From: Saccharothrix sp. NRRL B-16348
GTDB taxonomy: Bacteria > Actinomycetota > Actinomycetes > Mycobacteriales > Pseudonocardiaceae
Assembly (NCBI RefSeq): GCF_001280085.1
Contig: NZ_LGED01000235.1
Span: 1 to 64,000, forward strand
Direction of reading: 5' to 3'
DNA: 64,000 nucleotides
Shown: positions 9,490 through 59,772 of the stretch, one piece after another
Position numbering within the stretch: the stretch's first letter is position 1
Layout: each line of letters begins with the position of its first letter
Notes under the pieces: generated by a model
What the model was told of the DNA's origin: nothing
What the model saw: only the letters and a program-made list of their open reading frames with translations
Database searches by the model: none
Position numbers and translations under genes: made by a program

Positions 9490-10077
9490 ATCGAACCCCT
9501 GACGGACGCAAGGCCGCCGCCCACCGGACCCGACCGAACCGCCCCGCGAACACTCTCCGCACAGACCCTCTCCGACACCCGAAGCACACCCACGCACGAG
9601 TCGTCACCCACCCCCGCACCCAGTAATCGGGCACGCGCCGCACGGCACTACCGACGTGCCACCGCCGCTACGCCCGAGTAACGTCAAACGACGCTCCACG
9701 ACAAAGGTTACGGTTGTCTCAAAACATCATCGAAAATCCATCTGAACGGAGCACGAAGATATTTCATGCCCACTTGATGGACAGCCTACGGACGCGTGCA
9801 ACCGCCACCCCGCACCCCCGCCCCACCCCTTGACACGCGACTGCGAATAACCCTCGCATACTGCAGGTCTTTACGAGACCAGTCGGTCCAAACCAGCCGT
9901 TCGAGTGAACCCTGGAAGTGCATCTTCTAACACGGGGTTACATCCCCTCAAAATGGGGAATAGCCTTTCCACGAATGCTCCGTTCGGCGGTCGCGACGAT
10001 CTCCCGGCGACCGCCAACGTTGGGCCCGCAGACCCGGTTACTCATTGACACTGTGGCTCATTCTCAGAGGATCACGC
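9490..10077. other. long leader upstream of the NRPS operon
   Basis: No supported gene. From about 9700 the sequence is markedly richer in A/T than its surroundings, as expected for the control region of the NRPS operon. A TTGACA hexamer lies at 9830-9835, but the best -10 candidate, CATACT at 9857-9862, is 21 bp away, so the promoter is uncertain. Nearer the gene, gggg (9934-9937), cccc (9944-9947) and gggg (9955-9958) could form two mutually exclusive small stems. The ribosome binding site agagga precedes the first ATG. No regulator gene is next to the operon. Confidence 0.4.
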
Positions 10078-11349
10078 ATGGACACCGACCGGATCTCCAA
10101 CCGATTAGCGGCGCTGGCCCGTGAGCACCTGGTGCCCGGGGCCCAGCTCGCCGTGCACCACGCGGGACGCACGTGGACGCACGAGGTGGGCAGCCTGGCC
10201 GCCGACGCGGCCGTGCCCATCGGCTCGATCACCAAGACGTTCACCGCGACCGTCGCCATGGCCCTGGTCTCCGACGGCGACCTCGACCTGGACGCGCCGC
10301 TGTCCGACCACCTGCCGGGGGTGGCCGACGAGCTCACGCTGCGCCACCTGCTCAGCCACACGAGCGGCCTGCCGTCGGACCCGGAGGACGTGCGCACGAC
10401 GTCCCTGCGCCACCACGTCCGGCAGGCGCTGCGCGAGCTGCACCCCCTGCACGAGCCCGGCGCGGGCTTCTCCTACTCCAACATCGGGTATTCGCTGATC
10501 GGTCACCTGATCGAGGTGGCGACCGGGATGACCTGGTCGGAGGCGGTGGAAGCGGTCCTGCTGCGCCCGCTCGGGCTGCGCGCCAGGTTCACCACGAGCC
10601 CGGACGCCGACGTGGTCACGGGCCACTCGGTCAACCCCGCCACGGGCCGCGTGGTGCCGGTGACGCAGTCGATCGCCACGGTCGACGCGCCGGCGGGCGC
10701 CCTGGCCGTCAGCGCCGCGGAGCTGGTGGCGTTCGGCCGGATGCTCGGCGGCGCCGCGCCGCACCTGATGAGCCCGGACGACCTCGCGGCGATGCGCGAG
10801 CCCGTGCGGCACGCCGAGCCGTTCGGCATGGCCGACGGCTGGGGCCTCGGCCTGGCGCTGTTCCAGCGCGACGGCGTCCGCTGGGTCGGGCACGACGGCA
10901 CCGCCGACGGCACGTCGTGCCACCTGCGGATCAACCCGGCCGACGGGACGGCGGTCGCCCTGACGACCAACGGGAGCAGCGGTTTCGCGCTGTGGCGCGA
11001 GTTCGTGCCGGAATTGGCCGATGCGGGCCTGCCGGTGGCCGATTACGACGGAATGCGGGGCCTGCGCCGCCGCATCGCCCCTCCGCCGGACTGCGCCGGG
11101 CACTTCCGCAACGGTGAGGTCGAATACGCGGTGCGCGCCGTGGACCGGGAGCGCCTGGCGCTCACGGTGGACGGCGAGCCGTTCGCGGACCTGTCGTTGT
11201 TCGACGGCCTGGTGTTCGCGATGCGTGATTCCGACACCGGCGACACCAACCAGACCGGGCGTTTCCTGCGCGACCCGGACGACGGCGGGATCCGGTGGAT
11301 CCAGATCGGCGGTCGACTGGCCCGCAGGCAGGTCGCGAAAATGGCTTGA
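10078..11349 (+). CDS. PBP-type trans-acting peptide cyclase/thioesterase
   Basis: A 423-residue serine hydrolase of the class C beta-lactamase/penicillin-binding-protein fold. Catalytic motifs are S-I-T-K (Ser50, Lys53), Y-S-N (Tyr133, Asn135) and H-D-G (His272 onward). The C-terminal hundred residues form a second, beta-rich lipocalin-like domain, as in SurE of surugamide biosynthesis. It has no signal peptide, unlike true PBPs. It is the first gene of the NRPS operon, 66 bp before the first NRPS gene, and those NRPSs lack any thioesterase and end in an epimerisation domain. This is the context in which PBP-type thioesterases release and macrocyclise peptidyl chains with a D-configured C-terminus in trans. 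The start is the ATG after agagga; the frame is open 11 codons further up. A self-resistance D-peptidase is the main alternative. Confidence 0.85.
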   Translation: MDTDRISNRLAALAREHLVPGAQLAVHHAGRTWTHEVGSLAADAAVPIGSITKTFTATVAMALVSDGDLDLDAPLSDHLPGVADELTLRHLLSHTSGLPSDPEDVRTTSLRHHVRQALRELHPLHEPGAGFSYSNIGYSLIGHLIEVATGMTWSEAVEAVLLRPLGLRARFTTSPDADVVTGHSVNPATGRVVPVTQSIATVDAPAGALAVSAAELVAFGRMLGGAAPHLMSPDDLAAMREPVRHAEPFGMADGWGLGLALFQRDGVRWVGHDGTADGTSCHLRINPADGTAVALTTNGSSGFALWREFVPELADAGLPVADYDGMRGLRRRIAPPPDCAGHFRNGEVEYAVRAVDRERLALTVDGEPFADLSLFDGLVFAMRDSDTGDTNQTGRFLRDPDDGGIRWIQIGGRLARRQVAKMA

Positions 11350-11415: not shown

Positions 11416-14400
11416 ATGACGCATGCCCGCACACTGCCGGAATTGATCGCCGCACAGGCGCTGCGCACTCCGGACGCACCCGCGGTCATATCGGCCGAGG
11501 GTGTGGTCGGCTACCGGGAACTCGACGACCGCGCGAACCGGCTCGCGCACCTGCTCCTCGCCAAGGGGGCGCGGCGGGAGCGCGTGGTGGCGGTGGCCAT
11601 GCCACGCTCGGTGGACAACGTGGTGGCGCGGCTCGCGGTGCTGAAGACCGGCGCCGCGTACCTGCCGATCGACCCGGACTACCCGGCCGACCGGATCGCG
11701 TTCATGGTCTCCGACGCCGAGCCGCTGCTCGTGCTCGACGGCCCGCCGGACCTCGCCGACCAGCCCGCCACGGCGCCGGACGTCACGATCCGGCCGGAGG
11801 ACCCGGCGTACGTGATCTACACGTCCGGGTCGACCGGTCGCCCCAAGGGGGTGGTGGTGCCACACAGGGGTTTACCCGCCTTCTCCGCCGCCGAGATCGA
11901 CCACTTCGACGTGCGCCCGGGCGACCGGGTGCTCCAGTTCTCGTCGCCCAGCTTCGACGCCTCGGTGCTGGAGCTGTGCATGGCGCTGCCCGCCGGCGCG
12001 GCGCTCGTGGTGCCGCCGCCCGGGCCGCTGCTCGGCGACCAGCTCGCCGAGGTGCTCGCCGGGTTCGGCGTCACGCACGCGCTGATCCCGCCGGTCGCGC
12101 TGGCCACCGTGCCCGACGTCGAGCTGCCCGCGTTCCGCACGCTTGTCGTCGGCGGTGACGCCTGCCCGCCGGACCTGGTGGCGAAGTGGGCGCCCGGCCG
12201 CCGCATGATCAACGCGTACGGGCCGACCGAGTCCACTGTGGTCACGTCGTGGAGCGAGCCGCTGGAGCCGGGCGGCACGCCGCCCATCGGCCGTCCCATC
12301 CCGGGCACGTCGGTCCGCGTGCTGGACGACGAGCTGCGCCCGGCCGCCGAGGGCGAGCTGTACGTGACGGGCGTCGGCCTGGCCCGTGGCTACCTGGGCC
12401 GGCCGGGGCTGACCGCGCAGCGGTTCGTGGCCGACCCGTTCGGCGAGCCGGGCGGCCGCATGTACCGCACCGGTGACGTGGTCCGCACCCGCGCCGACGG
12501 TCAGTTGGACTTCGTCGGGCGGGCCGACCACCAGGTGAAGATCCGGGGTTTCCGGGTCGAGCCGGGCGAGATCGAGGCGCTGCTGCGGCAGCAGCCCGGG
12601 GTGGAGCACGCCGTCGTGGTCGCGCGCGGCGAGCCGAAGCGGCTGGTGGCGTACGTGATCGGCGAGACCGCCGGGCTGCGGGAGCGGCTGGTCGCGAGAC
12701 TGCCGGACTACCTGGTGCCGTCCGCCTTCGTCGCGTTGGCAGCGTTCCCGCTCACGCCCAACGGGAAGCTGGACCGCGACGCGCTGCCCGAACCCGTCGT
12801 CGGAGACGTCCCGGCGGACCACGTCGAGCCGCGCACCGCGGCCGAGCGCCGGGTCGCCGAGGTGTGGTCGGGCGTGCTCGGCGTGCCCCGGGTCGGCGCG
12901 CACGACGACTTCTTCGCCCTCGGGGGCGACTCGATCCTGGCCGTGCGGGCGCTGTCGCGGCTCGGCGGGCTGCCGGTGCGGGCGATGTTCGACCACCGCA
13001 CGGTCGCCGCGCTCGCCGAAGCCCTGCCCGACGAGGACGGCGCGCCCATCCCCCGCGCGCCGCGGGACCGGCCGCTGCCGCTGTCGTCGGCGCAACGCCG
13101 GCTGTTCTCGCTGGACGGCACGGCCGAGCAGAACACCGCCGTCGGCATCCGGCTGACCGGGCCGCTGGACGTGCCACGCCTCGCCAGGGCGCTGGACGCG
13201 CTGGCCTGCCGGCACGACGCGCTGCGCACGACGTTCGACGTGGTGGGCGACGAGCCGGTGCAGGTCGTCGCGCCGCACGGCAAGATCCCGCTGCGCGTGC
13301 TGCCCGCGGTGTCCGGCCCGACCTCACCACGCCCCACCGACCGAACCCGCACCGAGCCGGACCCGACCGAGCCTGCTCCCGCCGACCCGGGTCTGACCGC
13401 GCCGGACCCCACCAACCCGCGCCTCACCGCGCCGGACACCACCACCTCGGGACTGACCGCGCCGGCTCCCACCTCCCTGGGCCTGAGCGAGCCGGACCCG
13501 ACCGACCTGGGCCTGGACGAGCCGTTCGACCTGCGGCGCGGACCGTTGACCCGTGCCGTGCTCAGCCCGCTCGGCCCGGACGAGCACCTGCTCGTCCTGG
13601 TCCAGCACCACATCGTCACCGACGGCTGGTCGGTGCAGGTGCTGCTGCGGGAGCTGGCCGAGCTGTACGCGGGCGACCGACCGGCCGAGCCCTCCGTGCA
13701 GTACCCCGACTTCACCGCGTGGGACCGGGCCAGGCCGGAGGGCGACCCCGCGTACTGGCGCGACCGGCTCGACGGCGTCGAGGCGCTCGACCTGCCCACC
13801 GACCGGCCCCGGCCGCCGCTGCGCACCACGTCCGGCGCGGTGCTGCGGCGGCCCCTGCGGGCCGACCTGGTGCGCCGGCTGACGGGCGTGGGCCGGGCGC
13901 ACGACGCCACCTTGTTCATGACGCTCACCGCCGCCGTGCAGGTGCTGCTGTCCGCCCGCAGCCGGCAGCGGGACGTCGCGGTCGGCACGGTCAGCTCCGG
14001 CCGTGACCGCGCCGACCTGGAAGGCACGGTCGGGTTCTTCGTCCGCACGCTCGTGCTGCGCTCCTGGGTCGACCCGGACCTGCCGTTCACCGCGTTCCTG
14101 GACCAGGTGCGGAACACCACGCTCGAAGCCTTCGCGCACGACGACGTGCCGTTCGACCGCGTGGTGGCGGAGGTGCGGCCCGACCCGGACCCCAGCCGCA
14201 CGCCACTCGTGCAGGCCGTCGTGGCGCTGCACCAGCCGCTGCTGCGCCAGGCGGGCTTCGGCGAGCTGACCGCGGCCGAGCACGACCTCCCGCGCCCGGT
14301 GGCCCGGTTCGACCTGGTGGTGGAGTTCTGGCCGCGCGGCGACGACCTGGCGCTGACCGTCGAGTACAACACCGACCTGTTCGACGCGGCCACGATCGAG

Positions 14401-17400
14401 TCGCTGAGCGACGACCTGGAAGCGTTGCTGCGCCTGGTGGTGGACGACCCGGACCGACCGCTCCGCGATCTCGTCCCCCTCGGCCGGACCTCGGGCGACA
14501 GGCCGGACGGCACGGTCCGCGTCCGGGGCGTCCGGGTCGACCTAGCCGAGGTCGAGCGGGCGATCCGGCGGCACCACGAGGTGACCGACGCCGTGGTCGT
14601 GGCCGACGCAGGCACCCGGCTCGTCGCCTACGTGACGCCACCGGTGAACCCGGCGGCGCTGCGCGGGTTCCTCGGCCAGGTGCTGCCCGCGCACGCCGTG
14701 CCCGCGACGTTCGTCGGCCTCGACCACCTCGACCGGGACGCGCTGCCCGCACCCCCGGAGGAACGCGCGGAAGTCCGTTACGTGGCACCGCGCACGCCCG
14801 TCGAAGCCGTGCTCGCGGACGTGTTCGCCGAAGTGCTCGGCGCGGCACGGGTCGGTGTGCGGGACAACTTCTTCGCCCTCGGCGGCGACTCGATCCTCGG
14901 CATCCAGGTGGTCACCCGCGCCCGCCGCGCCGGACTGGTGCTGACCTCGCGGGACATCTTCGCCCACCAGACCATCGCCGCCATCGCGCCGCACGTCACC
15001 CGCGACCTGCCGCCCACCGCCGACCAGGGCGCGGTGACCGGCGCGGCCCCGCTCACCCCGATCCAGCGCTGGTTCCTGGACAACCACGCCGTGCGGCCCG
15101 AGCACTTCGACCAGTCCGTCGTGGTCGACCTGGACCCCGACCTCGACGTGCCCGCCCTGCGCACCGCCCTGGCCGCACTGGTCGAGCACCACGACGCGCT
15201 GCGCACCCGGTTCGAGGCCGACCGCCAGGTGGTCGGCCCCGTCACGCACGCGGACCCGTTGGCGCCGGACCGCTTCGACATCACCCGAGGACCGCTGCTG
15301 CGGGCCGAGGTCGTCGACGCCGGCTCGGTCCGCCTGACCGCGCACCACCTCGTGGTGGACGGCGTGTCGTGGCGGGTGCTGGTCGAAGACCTGGCCACGG
15401 CCTACCGCCAGGCCCGCGCCGGCCAGACCGTCCAGCTCGGGCGCAAGACGACGTCGTTCCGCGACTGGGCGATCCGGCTCGCCGACCACGCCCGGCACGG
15501 CTTCGACGCCGAACTCGACCACTGGACGGCCGTGGCCGCCGCACCGCCCGACCTCCCGGTGGACCGGCACGGCCCGAACACGGTCGGCTCGCAGCGCGAC
15601 GTGACCGTGCGACTCACCGAACGGGAGACCGACGCGCTGCTGCGCGACGTCCCCGGCGTGTACCGCACGCAGGTCAACGACGTGCTGCTGACCGCGCTCG
15701 GCCGGGTGCTGGCCGACTGGACGGGCCGGGACCGCGTGCTGCTCGACCTGGAAGGCCACGGCCGCGAGGAGTTGTTCGCCGACGTGGACCTGTCCCGCAC
15801 GGTCGGCTGGTTCACCACCGTCTTCCCGGTCGCGCTCGACCTGCCCGACGGCGACTGGGGTGACGCGCTCAAGTCGGTGAAGGAGCAGCTGCGCGCCGTG
15901 CCCGGACGCGGCATCGGCTACGGCGCGCTGCGCCACCTGGCCCGCACCGCGCCCGCCTGCGACCCCCGGGTCTCGTTCAACTACCTGGGCCGGTTCGACG
16001 CGGACCAGCGCGACCTGGAGCTGTCCGCCGACCCGCGCGCACCGCGCCCGCACCTGCTGGACGTCGTCGGCCAGGTGCGCGGCGACCGGCTGGAGTTCAC
16101 CTTCCACTACAGCGGGAACACCCACGACCACGACACCGTCGCCCGCCTCGCCGACGGGTTCGCCGCCGCGCTGCGCGGCATCGTGGCGCACTGCGCCGAG
16201 CCCGGCACGGGTGGCCGCACGCCGTCGGACTTCCCGCTGGCCGACCTGACCCAGGCCGAGGTGGACCTGATCACCGGCGAGGACGCCTACCCGCTCACCC
16301 CGATGCAGGCGGGCATGGTGTTCCACGGCCTCGGCGACCAGGGCGTGTACTTCCAGCAGACCACGTTCGTGGTCGACGGGGTGACCGACTCGGCCGCGTT
16401 CGCCGCCGCGTGGCAGCGGGTGGTCGACCGGACGCCCGTGCTGCGCAGCAGCGTGCTGTGGGAGGGCGTGCGGCGGCCGTTGCAGGTCGTGCACGAGCAC
16501 GTCCGGGTGCCGTTCACGTTCCTGGACTGGAGCCACCTGGACGAGGCCGCCCGCGCCGCCCGGCTGCGCGACCTGCTGGCCGAGGACCGGGCCGAGGGCA
16601 TCGACCTGGCCTCGCCGCCGTTGACGAGGGTCGCCATCGCCCGCCTGTCCCCCACCAGCGTCCAGGTGCTGTGGACGTTCCACCACGTGCTGCTCGACGG
16701 CTGGAGCGTCTTCCACGTGCTGTCCGACGTGCTCGGCGAGCCGGCGGAACGGCGGCCGTTCCGCGACTACGTGGCCTGGACGGCCGAGCAGGACGCGGCC
16801 GAGGCCGAGGCGCACTGGCGGCGGGTGCTGGCCGGGTTCGACTCGCCGACACCGCTGCCCGCCGACCGCCCCGCCGAGCACGGCACGTCGTCGCAACGCC
16901 TGAAGGTCGAGCTGACCGACGAGGAGTCCGCGGGGCTGTACGAGTTCGCCCGCCGGCACCGCGTCACGCCGAGCGCGATCGTGCAGGGCGCGTGGGCGCT
17001 GCTGCTGGCCCGGTCGGCGGGCAGGCGTGACGTGTGCTTCGGCGCGACGGTCTCCGGCCGGCCCGCGGAGCTGCCCGGCGTGGACGCGATCACCGGCATC
17101 TTCATCAACACGCTGCCGGTGCGGGTCCGGGTCGACGGCGCGGCGCCCGTGGCCGACTGGTTGCGCGCCTTGCAGGACGCCCAGGTCGAGTCGCGGCGGT
17201 TCGAGCACGTGCCGCTGGCCGACGTGCAGGCGTGGAGCGAGGTCGAGCGCGGCACCGCCCTGTTCGACAGTGTGGTCGTGTTCGAGAACTACCCGGTCGA
17301 CCTGGCCGAGGACATGGGGCTGCGCGAGCTGGCCGCGGTCGAGACCACGAGCTTCCCGCTCAGCGCCACCGTCTACCCGGCCGAACGGCTCGGCGTGCTG

Positions 17401-19263
17401 CTCGGCTACGAGCCCGCGATGTTCGACCCCGGCACCGTGCGACGGCTCGGCGAACGGCTGCGCAGGCTGCTGGTCGGCCTCGTCGCCGACCCGGACCGGC
17501 CGGTCGCCGACGTGCCGTGGCTGTCCGACGACGAGGTGCGCCAGGTGCTGGTCGACTGGAACGGCACGGTGGTCGGCGAGCCGACCACCACGATCCCCGA
17601 GCTGTTCGCCGCCCAGGCGGCCCGCACGCCGGACGCGGTCGCGGTGACGTGCGAGGGCGAGCACCTGACCTACCGCGAGCTGGACGAGCGCGCGAACCGC
17701 CTGGCGCACCACCTCGTCGCGGCGGGCGCGGGCCCGGAGGCGCTGGTGGCGTTGCGGTTCCCGCGTTCGCTGGACCAGGTCGTGGCGGTGCTGGCGGTGC
17801 TCAAGTCGGGCGCGGCGTACCTGCCGCTCGACCCGGCGTACCCGCCCGAGCGGATCGCCGCCACGATCGCCGACGCCCGTCCGGTCGCCGTGCTGTCGGA
17901 GATCCCGGACCTGACCGGCCTGCCGGCCACGGCGCCGACGCCGGCCCTGCGCCCGGACCACCCGGCGTACGTGATCTACACCTCGGGCTCCACCGGACGG
18001 CCCAAGGGCGTGGTGATCCCGCACGGCAACGTGGTGCGGCTGTTCTCGGCCACCGACCACTGGTTCCGGCTCGGTCCCGACGACGTGGTGTCGATGTTCC
18101 ACAGCTACGCCTTCGACGTCTCGGTCTTCGAGCTGTGGGCCGCGCTGCTGCACGGCGGCCGGCTGGTGGTCGTGCCGCACGCGGTGTCGCGGTCGCCGCG
18201 CGACTTCGCCCGACTGCTGGCCGACGAGGGCGTGACCATCCTCAGCCAGACGCCGTCGGCGTTCTACCAGCTGATCCCGGAGCAGCCGACCGGGCTGAGC
18301 CTGCGCTGCGTGATCTTCGCCGGCGAGGCGCTCGACCTGCGCAAGCTGGCGGGCTGGGACGGGCCCGGCGCGTTGATCAACATGTACGGCATCACCGAGA
18401 CGACCGTGCACGTCACCTACACCGAGGCCGACGGCAGCATCGGCGTGGCCATGCCGGACCTGCGGGTCTACGTGCTGGACGAGGACCTCAACCCCGTGCC
18501 GCCGAACGTGCCCGGCGAGCTGTACGTGGCCGGGCCCGGGCTGGCCCGCGGGTACCTCGACCGGCCCGGGCTGACCGCGTCGCGGTTCGTCGCGAACCCG
18601 TTCGGCCCACCCGGTTCCCGCATGTACCGCAGCGGCGACCTGGCCCGTTGGGAGGACGGCGCGCTGCACTACTTGGGCCGCGCCGACCAGCAGGTGAAGA
18701 TCCGCGGGTTCCGGATCGAGCTCGGCGAGGTGGAATCGGTCCTCGCCGCGCATCCTGCCGTCGCCCAGGTCGTTGTAGTGGCGAACGAACAACGCTTGGT
18801 GGCGTACTTCGTGCCGGACAAGCCGACTACGGCGTCGGAGCTGCGCGACCACACGGCCAAGGTCCTGCCCGACCACATGGTGCCCGCCGCGTTCGTCGCA
18901 CTGGAAAGCCTGCCGTTGACCGTGAACGGCAAGCTCGACCGCGTCGCGCTCCCCGCGCCCGAGCGCGACGCGGTCACGTCCGGGGATTACGTGGCGCCCC
19001 GGACCGAGACCGAAGAGGCGATCGCCGCCATCTGGGCCGACGTGCTCGGCGTCGACCGGGTCGGCGTGGAGGACAGCTTCTTCACCCTGGGCGGCGACTC
19101 GATCCGCAGCCTGCACATCACGTCCCGGACCAAGGCGGCCTTCGGCGTCGACCTGTCCCCACGCGACGTCCTCACCGCCCGCACCGTCTCCGCCCTGGCC
19201 GACCTGGTCGAGGAACTGGTGCTCGCGGACCTCGAAGCCCTCGCTGCCGACACGGAGGCGTGA
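11416..19263 (+). CDS. NRPS 1: A-T / C-(A remnant)-T-E / C-A-T
   Basis: 2615 residues, modules 1-3. Module 1 starts directly with A (about 1-480; A10 N-G-K-L-D-R) and T (Ser506), a loading module without formylation or starter C. Module 2 has C (H-H-I-V-T-D-G at 731-737) carrying a tandem-repeat insert (about 636-699), a decayed A remnant (about 1031-1114), an intact T (Ser1159) and E (H-H-L-V-V-D-G at 1310-1316). Module 3 has a C of the type that follows E domains (H-H at 1756), A (about 2055-2520) and T (Ser2562). The protein ends in an acidic helix likely to dock on NRPS 2. Specificity codes read by hand: A1 DALLVGAVVK, closest in my memory to a tyrocidine Tyr code (8 of 10); A3 DVFSIAMVHK, not assignable, some Thr-like positions. 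The stop lies 6 bp before the next gene, whose ribosome binding site (ggagg) is inside this one. Confidence 0.95.
13321..13512 (+). repeat. in-frame 30-bp repeats inside C domain 2
   Basis: Units starting at 13393, 13423, 13453 and 13483 repeat with an exact 30-bp, ten-residue period (consensus L-T-A-P-D-P-T-x-x-G), preceded by about 70 bp of looser Thr/Pro-rich copies. The array ends in phase with the normal C-domain sequence L-D-E-P-F-D. It adds about 60 residues compared with the corresponding C domain at the start of NRPS 2, upstream of the H-H-x-x-x-D-G site. It is probably a solvent-exposed, disordered loop. Confidence 0.85.
14503..14757 (+). pseudogene. remnant of adenylation domain in module 2
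   Basis: Where a full A domain of about 500 residues is expected between C2 and T2, only the small C-terminal subdomain remains. It starts at a decayed A8 motif ([14 protein letters not shown] instead of [14 protein letters not shown]). Motifs A1-A7, including the ATP-binding loop and the whole substrate pocket, are absent. The catalytic-Lys motif A10 is also lost: normal copies read about six residues ending N-G-K before L-D-R-D-A-L-P, and here these are deleted. The reading frame is intact, so the C, T and E domains around it are still made. Confidence 0.92.
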
Positions 19264-37944: not shown

Positions 37945-39158
37945 CGACGTCGTTGGCGCGCAACCGGAACTACACGCTGCTGTGGGGCGGTCAGGCGCTG
38001 GCCGAGGTCGGGTTCAGCGCCTCGATGCTGGCCCTGCCGCTGCTCGTGCTGGTGCTGACCGGGTCGCCGGTGCTGTCCGGTCTGGTGCTCACCGTGGACG
38101 CCACCGCGCAGCTGCTGGTGGGGCTGCCGGCCGGCGCGCTGGTCGACCGGTGGGACCGCCGCCGGATCATGCTGTGCTGCGAGGCGGCCCAGGTGTTGGC
38201 CCTCGGCGGGCTCGTGGCGGCGATGTGGGTCGACGCGGTCACGATCCCGCACGTCATGGCGGTCTCCGCGGTGCTCGGCGTGTGCCGGGCGTTGTTCGAG
38301 CCCGCGGAGGACGCGTGCCTGCCCCGGCTCGTGCCGGAGTCGCAGCTGGCGACGGCCGTGGCGATGAACAGCGCGCGGTCGTCGTTGGGGCAGATGTCGG
38401 GGACGGCGCTGGGCGGTGTGCTGATCGCCGTGGCGCGGTGGCTGCCGTTCCTGGTGGACATGCTGACGCACGTGGTGGCGTTCGTGGCGCTGCTGTTCCT
38501 GCGGGTGCCGCCGTCCGCGCCGGTCGAGTCGCACCCGCACCTGCTGCGGTCGATCGGCGAGGGCCTGCGGTGGGTGTGGAGCAGGCGGGAGATCCGGGTG
38601 ACGGCGCTGTGCGCGGTGGTGCTGAACCTGTTCTTCACCGCGTTCTACGTGGTCGTCATCGTGCTGGTGGAGGGCCGGGGCGCGTCGTTCGGCGAGATCG
38701 GCGTGATGGCGGCGATGCTCGGCGTCGGCGGCGTGCTCGGCGCCCTGGCCGCGCCGTGGCTGCACCGCGTGCTCGGGCCGCACCGGTCGATCGCGTCGGT
38801 GTTCTGGGTGCTGACCCTGCTGGTGCCGTGCGCGTTGCTGGTCGAGTCGGCCTACCTGATCGGGGTGCTGTTCGCCCTGATGAGCTTCCTGGCGCCGACG
38901 GCCAACACCACGATCAGCACCCACCAGCTGCTGCTCACCCCCGACGAGCTGCGCGGACGGCTCAGCGGGGTGATGGGTGTCGTCGTGGGCGGCGCGGGCG
39001 CGGCCGGTCCGCTGGTCGGCGGCGTGCTGACCGAGGCGCTGTCGGCCCGCACCGCCGTCGTGGTGTGCGCGGCGGGGATTTTGTCGATCACGGTTTTCGT
39101 CACGGTGAGCCCGACTCTGCGCGGGTACGCGAGAGCACAAGAGGAGAACAAGGCATGA
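37941..39158 (+). CDS. MFS exporter (EntS-like)
   Basis: A 405-residue major facilitator protein with about twelve hydrophobic helices. It shows the MFS loop motif D-R-W-D-R-R-R after helix 2 and the opening [13 protein letters not shown] typical of the EntS-like MFS_3 group, which exports siderophores, macrolides and peptides. The GTG start overlaps the NRPS 2 stop by four bases, and its own stop overlaps the MbtH start by four bases, so expression is translationally coupled to the synthetases. It most likely exports the NRPS product. No other resistance determinant is present in the operon. Confidence 0.93.
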
Positions 39159-39346
39159 GGGACGACATCACCTACCAGGTCCTGGTCAACGACGAGGGTC
39201 AGTACTCGTTGTGGCCCGCGCACCACGACGTGCCCGCCGGGTGGCGGTTCGAGGGCACCAAGGGCACCAAGGACGAGTGCTCGGCGCACGTCGACGAGGT
39301 GTGGACCGACATGCGGCCGGCGTCGTTGCGCGCGGCGATGGACTGA
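39155..39346 (+). CDS. mbtH: MbtH-family NRPS chaperone
   Basis: A 63-residue MbtH-like protein. It carries the family signature N-D-E-G-Q-Y-S-L-W-P, P-A-G-W-R and G-T-K-D-E-C followed by V-D-E-V-W-T-D-M-R-P. MbtH proteins bind A domains and are needed for their folding or activity; this one presumably serves the seven adenylation domains of the operon. The ATG overlaps the exporter stop (ATGA) and a gaggag ribosome binding site lies inside the exporter gene. It is the last gene of the operon, before a hairpin. Confidence 0.97.
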   Translation: MRDDITYQVLVNDEGQYSLWPAHHDVPAGWRFEGTKGTKDECSAHVDEVWTDMRPASLRAAMD

Positions 39347-50965: not shown

Positions 50966-52459
50966 TCACCGCTTCTCCCGCAAGGGTTCCCGGTGCACGG
51001 CCGTGGCCGGATCGGTCGTCAGCTCGTAGTCGCGCAGGCGCACCGAGCGGAGCAGTCGGCGGTAGGCCAGGGTTGAGCCCGGGTAGAGCACCGTCCCGGC
51101 GGGCGAGTCGTCGTGGTACCAGGTCCGGCAGCCGCCCACGGCCCAGATCGTGCGCGCGAACTTCCGGCGCAGCCACTCCTGGAAGCGCCGCTCCGCCTCC
51201 GGCCGGACGACCAGCGCCACGGCGCCGGCCGCGCGCACCGCCCGGATCGCGCGGACGACGTACCGCGACTGGGCCTCGATGGTGACGACCGCCCCCGTGT
51301 AGGGCACGGCGCTGTGCGGGCCGAGCAGCAGGAACGCGTTGGGGAACCCGGACACCGCCACACCCTGGTAAGTGGACGCGCCCGTGCGCCACACGTCGCT
51401 CAACAGGCGTCCGTCCACGCCCTCGACCTCGATGTGGTGGAACGACCCGGTGACGTCGAACCCGGTCGCGTAGACCACCACGTCGACCTCGTGCTCGTTC
51501 CCGGTCTCGTCTACGACGGCACGCGGGCGCAGGGCGGTGGGACCGCCGGCGACGACGTGGACGTTGGCCCGGTTGAGCGCCGGGTAGTACTCGTTGGAGA
51601 ACAGCACCCGCTTGCAGCCGAGCCGGTACCGCGGGGTGAGCTTGTCCCGCAGCTCCGGGTCGTCCACCTGGGCGGCGATCTGCCGGAGCACCACCGGTTC
51701 CGCGGCCGCGAGCGCGTCCGGGCGGTGGTGGAAGCCGAGCCCCCGCTTCTCCCGGCGCAGGTAGATCCTCAGCCGGTGCAGCGACTGCGCCCACGGCAGC
51801 AGGCGGAACAGCCGCTTGCGCCACGCGGACACCGGCGCGTCGGCCTTCGGCAGCACCCACGCCGGCGTGCGCTGGAAGACGGTCAACGCGGCGGCGCGTT
51901 CGGCCAGGTGCGGCACGAGCTGGACGCCGGACGCGCCCACGCCGACCAACGCGACCCGCTTGCCGGTGAGGTCCACGTCGTGGTTCCAGCGCGAGGAGTG
52001 CCAGGCGTACCCCTCGAATACGCCCGGCAGGTCCGGCACCTTCGGCGTGTGCAGGCCACCGACGCCCAGGACGAGAAAGCGGCTGGTGTAGGTGGCGCCG
52101 GCCGAGGTCGACACCACCCACGTCCCGCTGTCTGCCTGCCACCGCGCCCCGGTGACCTCCGTGCCGAACCGGATCGAGGGCCGCAGGCCGCGTCGCCGTG
52201 CCACGTCCCGCAGGTAGGCGAGGATCTCCGGCTGGGTGGCGTAGGTGGAGCTCCACCGCGGGTTGCGGTCGCGGGCGTAGGAGTAGAGGTCGGACTCCAC
52301 GTCGCACGACGCGTCGGGGTACGTGTTGTCGCGCCACGTGCCCCCGAGGTCGGCCGCCTTCTCCAAGACGAGGAAGTCGATCCCCGCCGCGGCCAGGTCG
52401 GCGGCCTGGCGCAGACCGGACATGCCTGCCCCGACGACGAGCACCTCGGTGGCGGTCAT
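50966..52459 (-). CDS. Baeyer-Villiger-type flavin monooxygenase
   Basis: A 497-residue FAD/NADPH monooxygenase. The FAD motif G-A-G-M-S-G is at 10-15, the NADPH motif G-V-G-A-S-G at 173-178, and G-G-T-W near residue 40 is typical of the class. The Baeyer-Villiger fingerprint F-x-G-x-x-x-H-x-x-x-W is present at 148-158, with Asn instead of the usual Pro or Asp after the Trp. Its ATG overlaps the stop of the PKS gene by four bases, so it is translationally coupled to the PKS and probably oxygenates its product (ketone to ester, or a heteroatom oxidation). The frame continues far upstream only as an antisense-like shadow of the PKS. Confidence 0.9.
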   Translation of the reverse strand: MTATEVLVVGAGMSGLRQAADLAAAGIDFLVLEKAADLGGTWRDNTYPDASCDVESDLYSYARDRNPRWSSTYATQPEILAYLRDVARRRGLRPSIRFGTEVTGARWQADSGTWVVSTSAGATYTSRFLVLGVGGLHTPKVPDLPGVFEGYAWHSSRWNHDVDLTGKRVALVGVGASGVQLVPHLAERAAALTVFQRTPAWVLPKADAPVSAWRKRLFRLLPWAQSLHRLRIYLRREKRGLGFHHRPDALAAAEPVVLRQIAAQVDDPELRDKLTPRYRLGCKRVLFSNEYYPALNRANVHVVAGGPTALRPRAVVDETGNEHEVDVVVYATGFDVTGSFHHIEVEGVDGRLLSDVWRTGASTYQGVAVSGFPNAFLLLGPHSAVPYTGAVVTIEAQSRYVVRAIRAVRAAGAVALVVRPEAERRFQEWLRRKFARTIWAVGGCRTWYHDDSPAGTVLYPGSTLAYRRLLRSVRLRDYELTTDPATAVHREPLREKR

Positions 52460-55400
52460 CGGTCCACCTCGCCGAGGAAGTCCGCGATCCGCGGCCAGAG
52501 CGCGGTCCACGCCTCGTCGGCGTGGTCGTTGTCGTGGCCCAGGCCGGGCACGGTCACCAAGCGCGCGGGCAGGCTCGACCGCCGTGCCCGGTCCACCAGG
52601 TCCAACGCCTGCGTCACGGGCACCACCTCGTCGGCGTCGCCGTGCACGACCAGGAGCGGCGCCTCGACGGCGTCGAGCCTGGCCAACGGCTGCCGCACGG
52701 GGTCGGCGAAGTGCGCCTCGACCTCCTCCGGCCCGACATCGGGACGGCCGGTCAGCAGGGCGCCGGGACGGGAGCGCTCGGCGTCGACCAGCAGCGCCGG
52801 GTCGTACAGCCCCATGAGCAGCACGGCCCGGTGCCACAACGACGGTTCACGGGCCAGCGCGAGGAGCGCGGAGTACGCGCCCCGGCTCGTGCCGAGGACG
52901 CTCAGCCTCGCCGGGTCGACCTCGGGCAGGCCGGCCAGGTGGTGGGCGGCGGCCACGACGTCGTCGATGTCCCGGCCGCCCATTTCGGCCAGCGCGCGGT
53001 ACTCGGCGCCGTGCCCCGGCGCCCCGCGCTGGTCGACCGTGAACACGGCGAACCCCGCCGCGAGCAGCGGTCCGTGCTCGCTCACGCGGGCGTAACGGCC
53101 CTGGTCGTCCAGGGCACCGCCCTCACCGGAGGTGCACACGACGACGGCCGGGTGCGGCCCGGGACCGTCGGGCAGGCTGAGGTGGCCGTGCACGACCACG
53201 CCGTCCGCCGAGGTGAACTCGTGGGCGGTGATGCGCTCGGCGGGCCGCGACGGGGTGTTCGGCGCCCGGTCCAGCTCCTCGGCCAGCAGGTCGACCAGGC
53301 CGCTCACGGTCAGGTTCCGCTGGAGCTTCACGGCGGGCACCGACACGCCGAGCGCGTTCTGCAACCCGACCCTCAGCTCGACCGCCACCAGGGAGTCGAT
53401 GTCGACCGCCTGCTCGTCCGCCAACTGCTGCCCGGTCAGGCCGGTGGTGCGCTCCAGGAGCGGGGTGACGAGCGTGGACAGCAGGTCGACGCGTTCCGCC
53501 GCGGTCGCGTCGCGCAGGCGCTGCACGACCGTCGAGTGCGCGTCGCCGTCCGAGGTGTCGGCGGGCACCAGCTCCTCGTACCGGGGCAGCCGGGCCAGTT
53601 GCGGGTTGGCCCGCGCCCAGCGCGACCAGTCGACGTCGGCCACCGACACCTCCACGGGTCGGGTGCGCAGCAGTGCTCCCAGCTCCGCCACCAGCCGGGC
53701 GGGCGACAGGCCGACGTGGCCGTTGCGGCGCAACGCGTCACCGACCGCGCCGTCGCGGCTGACCGCGACGCCCACCTCGTCGACCATGCCCCAGCCCACG
53801 GCGATGGCGGGCAGTCCCTTGAGGTTCCGGTGCCGCGCCAGCGCGTTGAGGAACTCGTTGGCGGTGGCGTACGCGCCCGCCGCGGCGGCGCCGAGCTGGG
53901 CGGCGACCGACGAGAAGAGCACGAAGAAGTCCAGGTCGTCCGCCTGCGTCGCCAGGTGCAGGTGCCAGGCGCCGTCCGCCTTCGGCCGGGTGGCGGCGAC
54001 CAGGCGGGCCGCGTCGGTGTCCGCCAGCACCACGTCGTCGAAGTCCGCCGCGGCGTGGACGACGCCCCGCACCGGGGGCAGCTCCTCGCGCAGCAGAGCG
54101 AACATCCGCTCGACCGCGCCGCGGTCGGCGACGTCGACGCGTTCGACGCGGACCTCGACGCCCCGCCCGGTCAGCTCGGCGACCACCCGCTCGGCCTCGG
54201 GCGTGACGACGCCGCGCCTGCCGACGAGCACCAGGTGGCGTGCGCCGCGGTCGGCCAGCCACCCGGCCACCACGAGCCCCAGGCCGCCCAGGCCTCCGGT
54301 GACCACGTAGGCGCCGTCGGGCCGGATCGGCGAACCGGGCACGGAGGCCGCCGGCACCGACACCGGTTCCCCCGCGACGCGCACCACGACCTTGCCGACG
54401 TGATCACCGCGGGTCATCGCGCGGAACGCCACGTCGACCTGCCCGGCGGGCACCTCGGTGACCGGCAGCGGGTCGAACCCGCCGTCCTCGTGCAGGGCGA
54501 CCACGTCCAGCATCGACGCGCGCACCAGCCCGGGGTCCAGCAGCATCATCCGGTCGTAGTCGAACGCGTGGAACGACAACGCGCGGTGGAAGGGCGCCAG
54601 GCCCAGCGAGTGGTCGGCGGCGATGTCGACCTTGCCCAGCTCGACGAAGCGACCGAAGGGCCGCAGCAGCCCCAGGCTCTTGCGCAGCAGTTCCCCGGAC
54701 AGCGAGTTGACCACGACGTCGACCCCCTCGCCGCCGGTCCAGCGCTGCACGTCGTCGGCGAACGCCGTGGACCGCGAGTCGGACACGCCCGCCACGCCCT
54801 CGCGGCGCAGGAACTCCCGCCGCTCGTCGCTGCCCGCGGTCGCGTACACCCGCGCGCCGAGCCGGGTCGCGATGCGCACCGCGGCCAGACCCACGCCGCC
54901 CGCGGCGGAGTGGACGAGCACCGTCTCACCCGGTCGCACCCGGGCCAGGCGCACCAACGCCTGGTGGGCCGTGACCACGGGGAGCAGCGAAGCGGCCTGG
55001 GCCAAGGACAGGGTCGACGGCTTGCGCACCACGCGCACCGCGTCGACCGTGACGTGCGAGCCGAACAGGTCGGCGGCGTGCACGAAGACCTCGTCGCCGG
55101 GACGCAGGTCCGCCACGTCCGCGCCGATCCGCACGACGGTGCCGGAGCACTCCAGGCCGAGCGCCTGCCGGGAGAGGCTGCCCTCCAACGCCTCCGGGGT
55201 GAGCAGACCCGTCACCTTCAGCACGTCCTTGAAGTTGAGGCCCACGAAGGAGACCTCGACCTCCACCTCGGTGGCCCTGGGTGCGCGGCGGGCCGTCGCG
55301 GCGAACCGCAAGCCCTCCACGCCCTGGCCGTCGGCGCGCAGGCGCACGGGGGTCTCGCCGGCCCGGCTGGTCACGTGGTGCAGCGCGGACCGGTCACCCG

Positions 55401-58400
55401 CCCGTTCGAGCCGGCGGACGTACCGGGCGTCGCCGCGGAGCACCACCTCGTCCAGCCCGGTGCGGGTCAGTTCGTCGGCCAGGGCCGCGGCGGGGGTTTC
55501 CGGCGTGACGTCGACGAGCCGGCAGCGGAGGTCCGGCCGCTCGGCGCCGACCACGCGGCCGAAGCCCCACAGGGCCGCCGCGAACGGGTCGGTGGTGTGG
55601 TCGTCCGCGGTGGCGCTCTGCGCGCCGGACGTCACCAGGAACAGCGGTGCGGCGGTGTCGGTCAGGGCTTGCACGAGCCGCAGCGGTGAGGCGACCGGCG
55701 CGCACGCGGCCGCGTCGTCCCGCTCGGTGCCGTTGACGTAGACCACGCCGCGGCACGGCGAGCCGACGCCGGCGCGGACAGCGTCGAGCCAGTTCTCGTC
55801 TTCCGGTGACGTGCGCAGGACGTCACCGCCCCGCGCGGTCAGTTCGGCGGCCAGGGCCGAGGACACCGGTGAGGACCCGATGACGACCCAGCGGCCCTCC
55901 GCCTCACCGGAGGGCTCCAGCGGTTCCGCGCGCCACGCGTGCTCGTAGTAGAGGTCTTCGGATCGGGACGACGGCCCGTCACCGTCCTGGACGAGCCGCT
56001 GGGCGCGCAGGCCGATCACCTCGGCGACCACCTCGCCGTCGTCGGTGAACAGGGTCAGGTCGCACTCCAGCCGCCCGGGAGCGGTGGCGCCGCGGTCACG
56101 CCCGTGCAGCCACAGCGTCCGGCCGGGCGAGCGGTGGAAGCGGAGTTCGGCGATGCGCGCGGGCACGTAGGTCACGCCGTCCTCGCCGGACAGCCGCAAC
56201 GACCCGGCGATCACCGCCTGCAGCGCCGCGTCGAGCAGCGCCGGGTGCAGCCGGTGGCCCGCCGCGTCGACCGCGTCGACCCGGACCTCGGCGAACACCT
56301 CGCCGGTCGCCTCCCGGAACCACAGCCTCTCGACCCCGCGGAACGCCGGCCCGTAGGTCAGGTTGCTGCGGTCCAGCAGCGCGTACACCTCGTCCCGGCC
56401 GAACTCCGGCAGCGACCGCGTCGACTCCGCCAACGCCTCGGCACGTCGTGGCGCGGGCCGCGGGCGCAGGACGTCCGGTCGGCGCATCCGCGCGTGCGAC
56501 GTCCAGCCGGCGTCGTCGCCCTGCCCGCGGCTGTGCAGCGTCACGAGGCGCCGGCCGGGGTCGTAGGCGACGCGGAGCGTCGTGACAGAACGCGGCTGGA
56601 GCGCGAGAGGCCGCTGGAAGACGACGTCCTCGAAGAAGCACGGCTCGTCGTCGGGGAACAGGGCCAGCGCCGCTTCCAGGTAGCCGGAGCCGGGGAAGAC
56701 CACGGTGTCGCCGATTCGGTGGTCGGTGAGGTAGGGCAACTCGCTCTCGGACAGCTCCACGTCCCGGGTGGGGTCGACCGCCGGCACGGTCCGCCCGGCC
56801 AGCCGCAGGCCGCCGCCGCCCAGCCTGGCCTCCCGCGCGGCGGCCGACTCGACCCAGTGGTGTTCCCGCTGCCACGGGTACCGCGGCAGGTCCAGGTGCT
56901 CGCGCGGCCCGGGGTGCACGCCCTCCCAGTCGGGGTCCACCCCCGCCGCGTAGAGGGCGCCCAGCGCTTCGAGCAGCTGCTGCCGCTGGGGGCGGTCCCG
57001 GCGCAGCGACGCCACCCGCACGACGTCGCCGTGCCCGGCCAGCCCTTCGTCGATCGCCGCGGCCAGCACCGGGTGCGGTCCGACCTCGACGACCGCCGCC
57101 GGGGCGGACGACAGCACCCGCCGCAGCGCCGCGGCGAACCGGACCGGCCTGCGCACGTTCTCCCACCAGTAGGCGGCGTCCAGCTCGACACCGGTCACCA
57201 GGTCACCCGTCACGGTCGACACGAGCGGGACCCGTGCCTCGCGCGGCGTGATGCCGCTCAACGCCGCCAGCAGCGGCTCGCGGATCACGTCCATGTGCCG
57301 GCTGTGGTAGGCCACCTCGACCCGCAGCGGCTGCACCGACGCGCCGGCCGCGCGCAGTCGCCACGTGACCTCTTCGACGGCGGCCGGGTCGCCGGCCAGG
57401 GTCGTCGCGGTCGCGCTGTTGACGGCGGCCACCTCCACCCCGTCCACCAAGTGGGGCTCCACAGCGTCCGCGGCCAGGTCGACCGCCACCATCGCGCCGC
57501 GACCGGCCAGGCCGGCCTGGAGGCTCGCCCGGTGGAACGCGACCGTCAGCGCGTCCGGCAGGGAGTACACGCCCGCCGCGTACGCCGCGGCCACCTCGCC
57601 GACGCTGTGGCCCACGACCGCCGAGGGTTCGACGCCCCAGGCACGCCAGAGCGCGGTGAGACCCGCCTGCACGACGAAGTTGGCGACCTGCGCGTAGACG
57701 GTCTCGGTCAGCCGGGACTCGTCCCGCTCGCGCAGCAGCTCGTCGGCGATCGACAGGCCGAAGCGCGCCAGCACCGCGTCGCACTCGGCGACCACCTCGG
57801 CGAACCGCGGCTCGGTCCGCAGCAGCTCGCGCCCCATGCCCCACCACTGCGGGCCCATGCCGGTGTAGACGAAGGCCACGCCGCTGCGCGTCGCCCGGCG
57901 CGGGGCGGGCTCCAGCCGCCGCAGCTCCTCCACCGCGCCCGCCACGTCGACCGCCACGACCGACGTGCGGAGGGGGTGGTGGTCGCGCTGCCGTGAAGCC
58001 GCACGGGCGAGCCGCCGCAGCGCCGGCGCGTCCGGGCGTTCCAGCAGGTCCGCGTACCGCGCGGCGAGCGCGCGCAAGGCCTCCGGACTGCGTGCCGATA
58101 GCGGGAGCACGTGCGGTCGGCCGTCGTCGCCCTCCTCGTCGGCGGTCGCCGGTGCTTGGGGCGCCTGCTCCAGGATCGCGTGCGCGTTGGTGCCGCCGAA
58201 GCCGAACGAGTTCACCCCCGCCCGGCGCGGGCCCGGCAGGTCGGGGAACGGCACGATCCCGGTCGGCACCCGCAGGGGCAGCCGGTCGAACGGGATGCGG
58301 GGGTTGGGCCGCTCGAAGTGGAGGTTCGGCGGGATGAGACCGCGCTCCAGGCACAGGCTCGCCTTGATCACGCCGGCGACGCCCGCCGCGGCCTCGGTGT

Positions 58401-59511: not shown

Positions 59512-59772
59512 GGGGCTTCCTCCACGCTGAACAGCGACCTGCTCTGTCCCTCGCACTATCGGGAAGTCCTCCCTCCCACCGCACCGGCAGGAGCCGCGCA
59601 CCGCCCGAACGAACATGATCATTGCCCGATCGCACGCGTCCACGGCGCCGACGCGCATGACCCGCGGCGAGGTGCGGGCGGCGAGGTGCGGGCGGCGAGG
59701 AAGCTCTTTTGCGGACACAAACCGTCCGACCTTCGCTACGTTGGGCGATCCGATGGCCTTGAGGGAGAGCCT
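59512..59772. promoter_or_regulatory. divergent gap between PKS and NACHT genes
   Basis: This 261-bp gap must hold promoters for both genes; no convincing -35/-10 pair was found. It contains 2.6 copies of a 14-bp direct repeat (gcggcgaggtgcgg at 59664-59677 and 59678-59691, then nine bases of a third). Ribosome binding sites of both genes are clear at its ends. Confidence 0.5.

Follow-up and report, generated by a model that had tools for sequence, protein, structure and literature searches.

An adenylation-domain-less module conserved in Pseudonocardiaceae nonribosomal peptide synthetases and the domain that may charge its carrier

The DNA analysed here, referred to as the window, is a stretch of 64,000 nucleotides from Saccharothrix sp. 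NRRL B-16348 that forms part of contig C234 of genome G000. It contains an operon-like series comprising a gene for a beta-lactamase-fold protein, two nonribosomal peptide synthetase genes (NRPS1 and NRPS2), an MFS transporter gene and an MbtH gene:

10045 to 11349, plus strand: candidate PBP-type thioesterase/cyclase with a beta-lactamase fold (Pfam and structure comparison)
11416 to 19263, plus strand: NRPS1, a single uninterrupted frame of 2615 amino acids
19270 to 37944, plus strand: NRPS2, 6224 amino acids
37941 to 39158, plus strand: MFS transporter gene (Pfam)
39155 to 39346, plus strand: gene for an MbtH-like protein (Pfam)

A motif scan gives the domain order of NRPS1 as A1-T1-C2-T2-E2-C3-A3-T3, with the following limits:

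11440 to 12810, plus strand: A1, a complete adenylation domain with the signature DALLVGAVV (Pfam and signature; outer limits approximate)
12811 to 13035, plus strand: T1 carrier, LGGDS (motif)
13060 to 14451, plus strand: C2 condensation domain with HHIVTDG present (motif), nearest to C4, C6 and C8 (45–50%)
14503 to 14751, plus strand: A2 remnant, an A_sub piece with a changed A8, lacking the A10 loop with its lysine and the A core (Pfam and alignment)
14752 to 15000, plus strand: T2 carrier of the type found before E domains, with the serine codon (TCG) of its GGDS motif at 14890-14892
15031 to 16245, plus strand: E2 epimerization domain, HHLVVDG and EGHGRE (motifs)
16273 to 17565, plus strand: C3 condensation domain of the type found after E domains, 49–51% to C5 and C7 and 28–32% to C2, C4, C6 and C8
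17605 to 18945, plus strand: A3, signature DVFSIAMVH, variable among relatives and missing in Allokutzneria
18988 to 19215, plus strand: T3 carrier (motif)

NRPS2, whose layout is based on motifs and AMP-binding matches alone, reads C4-A4-T4-E4-C5-A5-T5-C6-A6-T6-E6-C7-A7-T7-C8-A8-T8-E8. The seven further adenylation domains counted in a preliminary description of this DNA are thus recovered as A1, A3 and A4 to A8. C2 of the window contains an in-frame insert rich in Pro, Thr and Asp that derives from a 30-base tandem array (13336-13524, ∼6.3 copies by TRF), and the distance from the start of C2 to the T2 motif is 601 residues compared with 526–567 in ten relatives. Inserts resembling it, of differing lengths, are present in P0011 and P0013.

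Module 2 of NRPS1 has condensation, carrier and epimerization domains and no adenylation domain, as the preliminary description had proposed and as Pfam and the motif scan now bear out. C2 and T2 are separated by just an 83-residue A_sub piece. NRPS1 has two stretches matching the AMP-binding core as against three matching AMP-binding_C, and the region 14455-14850 matches only the latter (PF13193, E 8.3e-8). From the HHIVTDG motif of C2 to the GGDS motif of T2 there are 425 residues in the window versus 838–874 in eight modules with an intact A2. Aligned with intact-A2 relatives and solved NRPSs, the remnant corresponds to A_sub from A8 to just past A10 and ends at the LPxP linker. It does begin at a decayed A8 motif, as had been claimed, which reads RVRGVRVD in place of KIRGFRIE, and the alignment confirms the reported deletion of the catalytic lysine of A10: a loop of eight residues that includes it is absent, at the identical point in all five diverse remnant rows compared. 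Since this lysine is gone, the remnant is expected to be without adenylating power. The rest of the module is well preserved. C2 and E2 have intact HHxxxDG motifs, and T2 retains GGDS and is of the pre-E type, sharing 62–68% identity with T4, T6 and T8 versus 47–54% with T1, T3, T5 and T7, all in agreement with the earlier claims.

An AlphaFold model of the remnant together with T2 has a block of high confidence (pLDDT 87–96, residues 21–100) with strands and helices like those of A_sub, and a Foldseek search with this two-domain model gave LgrA, DhbF and SrfA-C as top matches. A model of C2, remnant and T2 had a mean pLDDT of 52.8 and was left unused. Rates of dN/dS were computed for 78 pairs formed among the window and 12 of the 19 other genus loci, this being the number available since the plus frame alone was read. 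The remnant has a median of 0.36, compared with 0.21 for the A_sub of A1, 0.39 for E2 and 0.34 for T1. The remnant sequence is not random, and by these values it appears to be under constraint, though not above its neighbours.

The source genome is a draft of 278 contigs, so that the A-less state might be thought an assembly collapse or a recent pseudogene. The preliminary description had argued against a collapse, and an explanation of either kind now has practically no probability. The NRPS1 frame is open throughout. When 5.8 billion proteins were searched with residues 1000–1140 of NRPS1, Saccharothrix, Actinosynnema and Lentzea contributed a block of orthologs. Full-length NRPS1 orthologs are ∼2500–2650 amino acids long, and those spanning C2 to T2 have no A domain in between. 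(A protein search with C2 was flooded by multi-module proteins at 34–50% identity, which we attribute to scores summing over several C domains.) Within the genus, 22 of 25 genomes, the window counted, give a match of near-equal length that covers the remnant and continues into T2; nine of the 22 are single-contig assemblies, and the A10 gap is common to the five remnant rows noted above. Genes upstream of the cluster are common to the four relatives read and downstream ones to two of these four (G002 and G021). Collapse is ruled out because independent genomes share the architecture, and with the open frame and the orthologs this led us to reject both an assembly artefact and a frameshift.

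The A-less module 2 is also found in six Pseudonocardiaceae genera beyond Saccharothrix. Of 200 family genomes, 14 align across the remnant region at ≥60% identity, and in eight more, read from DNA, C2 is directly followed by T2 (331–357 residues from HHxxxDG to GGDS) with no trace of an A domain. The A-less genomes include, by genus names that we infer, Saccharothrix, Lentzea, Allokutzneria, Actinokineospora, Actinophytocola and Kibdelosporangium. A script assigned 58 of 78 loci, the other 20 being left unclassified, to 10 with a remnant, six that are trace-free (one of them from Solihabitans fulvus), 38 with an intact A2 and four that were unreadable, having no readable C motif. Module 2 therefore occurs in three states, namely with an intact A2 in sister NRPSs (L035-L038, L080, L081, L086 and L087), with an A_sub remnant, and with no trace. 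In a sample of 190 other NRPSs picked by similarity to this one, 70 of 540 C-to-T spans were under 600 residues and 16 of these (∼3% of the 540) were true A-less modules when judged by eye from the printed T motif. A-less modules are thus uncommon, not unique. Five of the 16 retain part of an A domain, namely A_sub in P0196 and late pieces of the A core in P0162, P0184, P0195 and P0223. The ORF length and gap of L105 (JOAA01000003.1) are identical to those of the Kibdelosporangium locus L108.

In a tree of T2 and E2 all 21 A-less rows lie on one side of a branch with support of 93/93. A C2 tree also recovers an A-less grouping, with support of only 44/24 since Kibdelosporangium has no fixed place in it; the remaining 19 rows group at 91/91. 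In both trees the trace-free rows of Actinokineospora and Actinophytocola are placed among those with a remnant. Most simply, the A core and the A10 loop would have been lost once, and one or two lineages would then have erased the rest. A single loss is favoured by the T2-E2 tree, whereas the C2 tree taken alone does not fix the number, and a second loss in Kibdelosporangium is possible. A distant NRPS of G172 (L088 with L183, from G172:C1:3211819 onwards; one open frame of 7391 amino acids) has the order A1-T1-C-[A_sub piece]-T-E-C-T, with RGAVD at the expected NGKxD position and the lysine of A10 thereby replaced. It forms a very long branch in both trees and its placement is unsure, but its loss is apparently independent of the main A-less group and we have kept it as a separate case.

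The erosion has gone further in Allokutzneria. In all three genomes (L072, L073 and L074, corresponding to G114, G081 and G141) A3 is missing too, with 337–344 residues from the C3 motif to the T3 motif and no A3 between, and for two of them the profile searches give NRPS1 a single AMP-binding domain. Allokutzneria NRPS1 thus has three carriers and one A domain.

An A-less module can in principle be skipped, and module skipping is known in other NRPSs. The preliminary description had allowed for it, and in that case T2 and E2 would be relics and the chain would go from T1 to module 3. Several observations make this quite unlikely. Of 62 A-less sequences, among which three or more pairs have the same module-2 row, 59 satisfied a motif search that required HHxxxDG (C2), LGGDS (T2) and the E2 motif. 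In these 59, C2 reads HHxxTDG and E2 reads HHLVVDG throughout, EGHGRE (no condition of the search) is present in every one, and no NGK or SGK was found at the A10 position. The other three are two fragments starting past the C2 motif (P0038 and P0044) and P0029, in which the final glycine of the E2 motif is changed (HHLVVDV). T2 is the most constrained of six segments measured, with a median dN/dS of 0.134 versus 0.335 for T1, and module 2 persists in seven genera. In addition, C3 is similar to C5 and C7, both located after E domains, so that it should expect a D-residue from E2, and a bypass would mismatch C3 with its partner. By the tests run here module 2 is real and looks functional, and it is very probably used by the assembly line.

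The question is then which A domain charges T2. The preliminary description had named A1 as a candidate, and it is now the best one, although by elimination. Signatures were read at positions that we take to follow GrsA numbering. Position 278 was located by motif, with the first match taken, and cannot be relied on in domains that offer two candidate motifs. Read in this way, the A1 signature is DALL(V/I)GAVV in 38 of the 40 orthologs whose A1 could be read (window counted), the other two being DALVVGAVV and DALFIGAVI. All 13 A-less relatives read at the DNA level have it as well, L071 and L082 among them duplicating rows of the 40. With position 278 left out, DAL-(V/I)GAVV is found in 56 of 57 and GAVI in one. 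No substrate assignment for DALLVGAVV was found in the literature searched for A-domain signatures.

A3, by comparison, is not constant. It lies downstream of T2 in cis in the window and most relatives, so that it too could be thought to load T2, but it is missing in all three Allokutzneria although module 2 remains, and among 54 classified sequences (P0028 and L102 left out) the module-2 tree shows eight changes of its class, or 12 under cruder classes that put two DVWNIAMVH domains with the Ser-like ones, while T2 stays strongly conserved. A3 signatures among the relatives are Thr-like, Ser-like, DVF-type or A1-like. We take DVWHLSL(V/I)D to be a Ser signature and the DTED signatures of A4-A6 to be basic-residue ones, and DFWNIGMVHK is placed in the threonine section of PMC12283262. 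Charging of T2 by A3 is very unlikely, and A3 as a universal loader was rejected given its absence in Allokutzneria and its swaps in relatives. In A3 of P0006, from Saccharothrix deserti, a five-residue repeat SSGHD is present in about six copies.

Enzymes acting in trans usually have their gene within the cluster. Profile searches of five whole genomes and a motif scan found no free-standing A or A-T gene linked to the cluster. AMP-binding matches outside the cluster were absent within 26 kb downstream in all five and absent upstream as far as could be viewed (6–89 kb), the upstream view ending at contig ends in G114, G000 and G163. The nearest such matches are >110 kb away in G081. In G163 the next is >90 kb downstream, with none upstream to the contig end at ∼32 kb, and in G002 an NRPS lies ∼26 kb downstream while the 89 kb upstream are empty of AMP-binding matches. 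G114 has other NRPSs ∼45 kb downstream and none in the 6 kb upstream held by the contig. In G000 there is none in the 10 kb upstream, and downstream only a broken-looking 216-residue ORF with two partial AMP-binding stretches at ∼34 kb (G000:C234:73713-74090, outside the window).

The constancy of A1 does not by itself single it out, since A8 has the same signature and 76% identity to A1 over the compared core. In NRPS2 the final A domain has the signature DALLVGAVV both in the window and in six relatives (G002, G021, G008, G015, G081 and G114), with a partial reading of it in G163; position 278 is unreliable throughout this comparison, in which it gave scattered letters. This likeness makes A8, acting in trans, the main rival. 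A7, or a free-standing A or A-T enzyme whose gene is not linked to the cluster, would be variants of the same idea, the latter being conceivable given 83 AMP-binding matches in the source genome, and trans enzymes are documented for WS9326A (PMC7539972, in excerpt) and for syringomycin, ramoplanin and enduracidin (PMC8949500, in excerpt). On the other hand, A8 is on a separate polypeptide and six modules off, and none of the five genomes has a linked free-standing gene. We consider charging in trans, by whichever of these, rather unlikely, though the least so of the alternatives to A1. With A3 variable or missing and no linked free-standing A gene found in the five genomes, only A1 combines a place on the chain next to module 2 with a constant signature. 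Six intact-A2 sisters have readable signatures for both A1 and A2. In three (L081, L086 and L087) the two are alike, so that A2 could be lost from such a state with the product unchanged; in the other three (L037, L038 and L080) they are unlike, which counts against charging by A1.

We therefore propose that an ancestor inside the Pseudonocardiaceae lost the A2 of module 2, which is the most economical reading of the sequences and trees, and that module 2 would remain a working elongation module in which T2 is charged by A1, the complete A domain that belongs to the loading module on the same chain and that would charge T1 as well. C2 would couple residues 1 and 2, E2 would epimerize the dipeptidyl thioester and the D-type C3 would hand the dipeptide to module 3, steps that are suggested by the domain types. 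If A1 charges both carriers, residues 1 and 2 would be identical amino acids, the second of them in D form. The remaining A_sub piece would be a folded leftover that serves as a spacer between C2 and T2, and in Allokutzneria A1 would load T3 likewise. We put the probability of this explanation as a whole, with A1 serving T1 and T2 in cis after ancestral loss of A2, at about 0.6. A more active role for the remnant is a long shot. In this variant it would be an adaptor that docks T2 to A1, or to the A1 core in place of A1's own A_sub, one A core thus serving two carriers via two different small subdomains, and what the remnant has lost would be exactly the adenylation loop, its fold and much of the A8 thioester-transfer face being kept. 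If this were true, lineages without a remnant would dock by some other means.

A-less modules served by the A domain of another module are known already. In yersiniabactin synthesis three cysteines are incorporated, two of them loaded in trans, and HMWP2 is not known to belong to an A-domain erosion series. The precedent of HMWP2, invoked in the preliminary description, holds in that one A domain charges several carriers, one of them in cis (PMC7539972, in excerpt), but capreomycin is closer. In that system CmnA-A1 loads the carrier of the A-less CmnI (PMC12400406, in excerpt). As with CmnI, the module described here keeps its T domain and would be supplied by the A domain of a loading module, an MbtH partner is present, and the producer is a Saccharothrix. 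The two differ in that CmnI is a separate protein of T and C whose loading is proven, whereas the present module, known from sequence, is on the chain of its presumed loader and has an A_sub piece followed, after T2, by an E domain. As would be expected of the CmnI and HMWP2 kind, module 2 has C and T domains without an A core, and no dedicated free-standing A enzyme was found in the cluster in the five genomes searched here.

A-less modules of the fungal siderophore NRPSs SidC, SidD and Nps6 also depend on an upstream A domain (PMC12400406), but these are fungal and the excerpted description has no epimerization step. In WS9326A and himastatin, A-less modules of actinomycete NRPSs are served by A-T enzymes in trans (PMC7539972, PMC9943842, both in excerpt), and the third HtmL module of himastatin has an E domain like module 2. 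These differ from the present case in having a dedicated free-standing A-T gene, as do systems of the WS9326A and syringomycin kind generally in having an A or A-T gene within the cluster, and none was found near this one. Syringomycin (PMC7539972) and albicidin, ramoplanin and enduracidin (PMC8949500) are given in the excerpts as further cases. In albicidin and cystobactamid a decayed A domain likewise remains in the chain (PMC8949500), but it is a non-functional A domain combined with a stand-alone A-T enzyme rather than A_sub alone. Nerpa, by its excerpted description, works on the assumption that A-less modules can reuse the preceding A domain (PMC8541647), and for bonsecamin an A-less module was proposed to receive its chain by transfer (PMC8400726, in excerpt). 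Among the matches listed from the open-licence literature there was no paper describing this cluster, a result that argues only weakly against a published account.

The new elements are that the module is conserved across genera, that its A domain has been erased by degrees and that some relatives are A-less in two modules. A-less modules have mostly been seen as oddities of single clusters, and this one persists in no fewer than seven genera of one family. That related bacteria share the loss suggests a lasting arrangement that works, with the building block coming from another station, probably the first one. With A2 intact, half-erased or absent, and with some relatives lacking the A domain of the next module too, these NRPSs form a natural deletion series that shows where an A domain can leave the chain and how much linker must stay. 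They turn the reach of one A domain to two or three carriers on its own chain into a directly testable question. They also call for caution in product prediction, as 'no A domain' need not equal 'no residue'.

A shuttle type II thioesterase would be expected in a cluster of the WS9326A and syringomycin kind, and no match to the thioesterase family PF00975 was found in 28 stretches of the window besides the NRPSs (a subset of ORFs) that were submitted to Pfam. NRPS2 ends in E8, with no thioesterase seen in its motifs or translation. The product of 10045-11349 is closest to 8fek, named as the PBP cyclase Ulm16 (E 3.6e-63), and next to it matches 6ksu/6ksv (E 6.6e-61), listed as an alpha/beta hydrolase, which we take to be SurE. 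As in systems of the SurE and Ulm16 kind, the last module ends in an E domain without a thioesterase and an adjoining gene encodes a beta-lactamase-fold protein nearest to PBP-type cyclases. Release of an octapeptide, probably with cyclization, would fall to this neighbouring enzyme. If each module works once, the expected product would be a cyclic octapeptide with D-residues at positions 2, 4, 6 and 8. Elsewhere in the window, the minus strand has an ORF of 3023 amino acids at 52456-61527 with a third-position G+C of 0.91.
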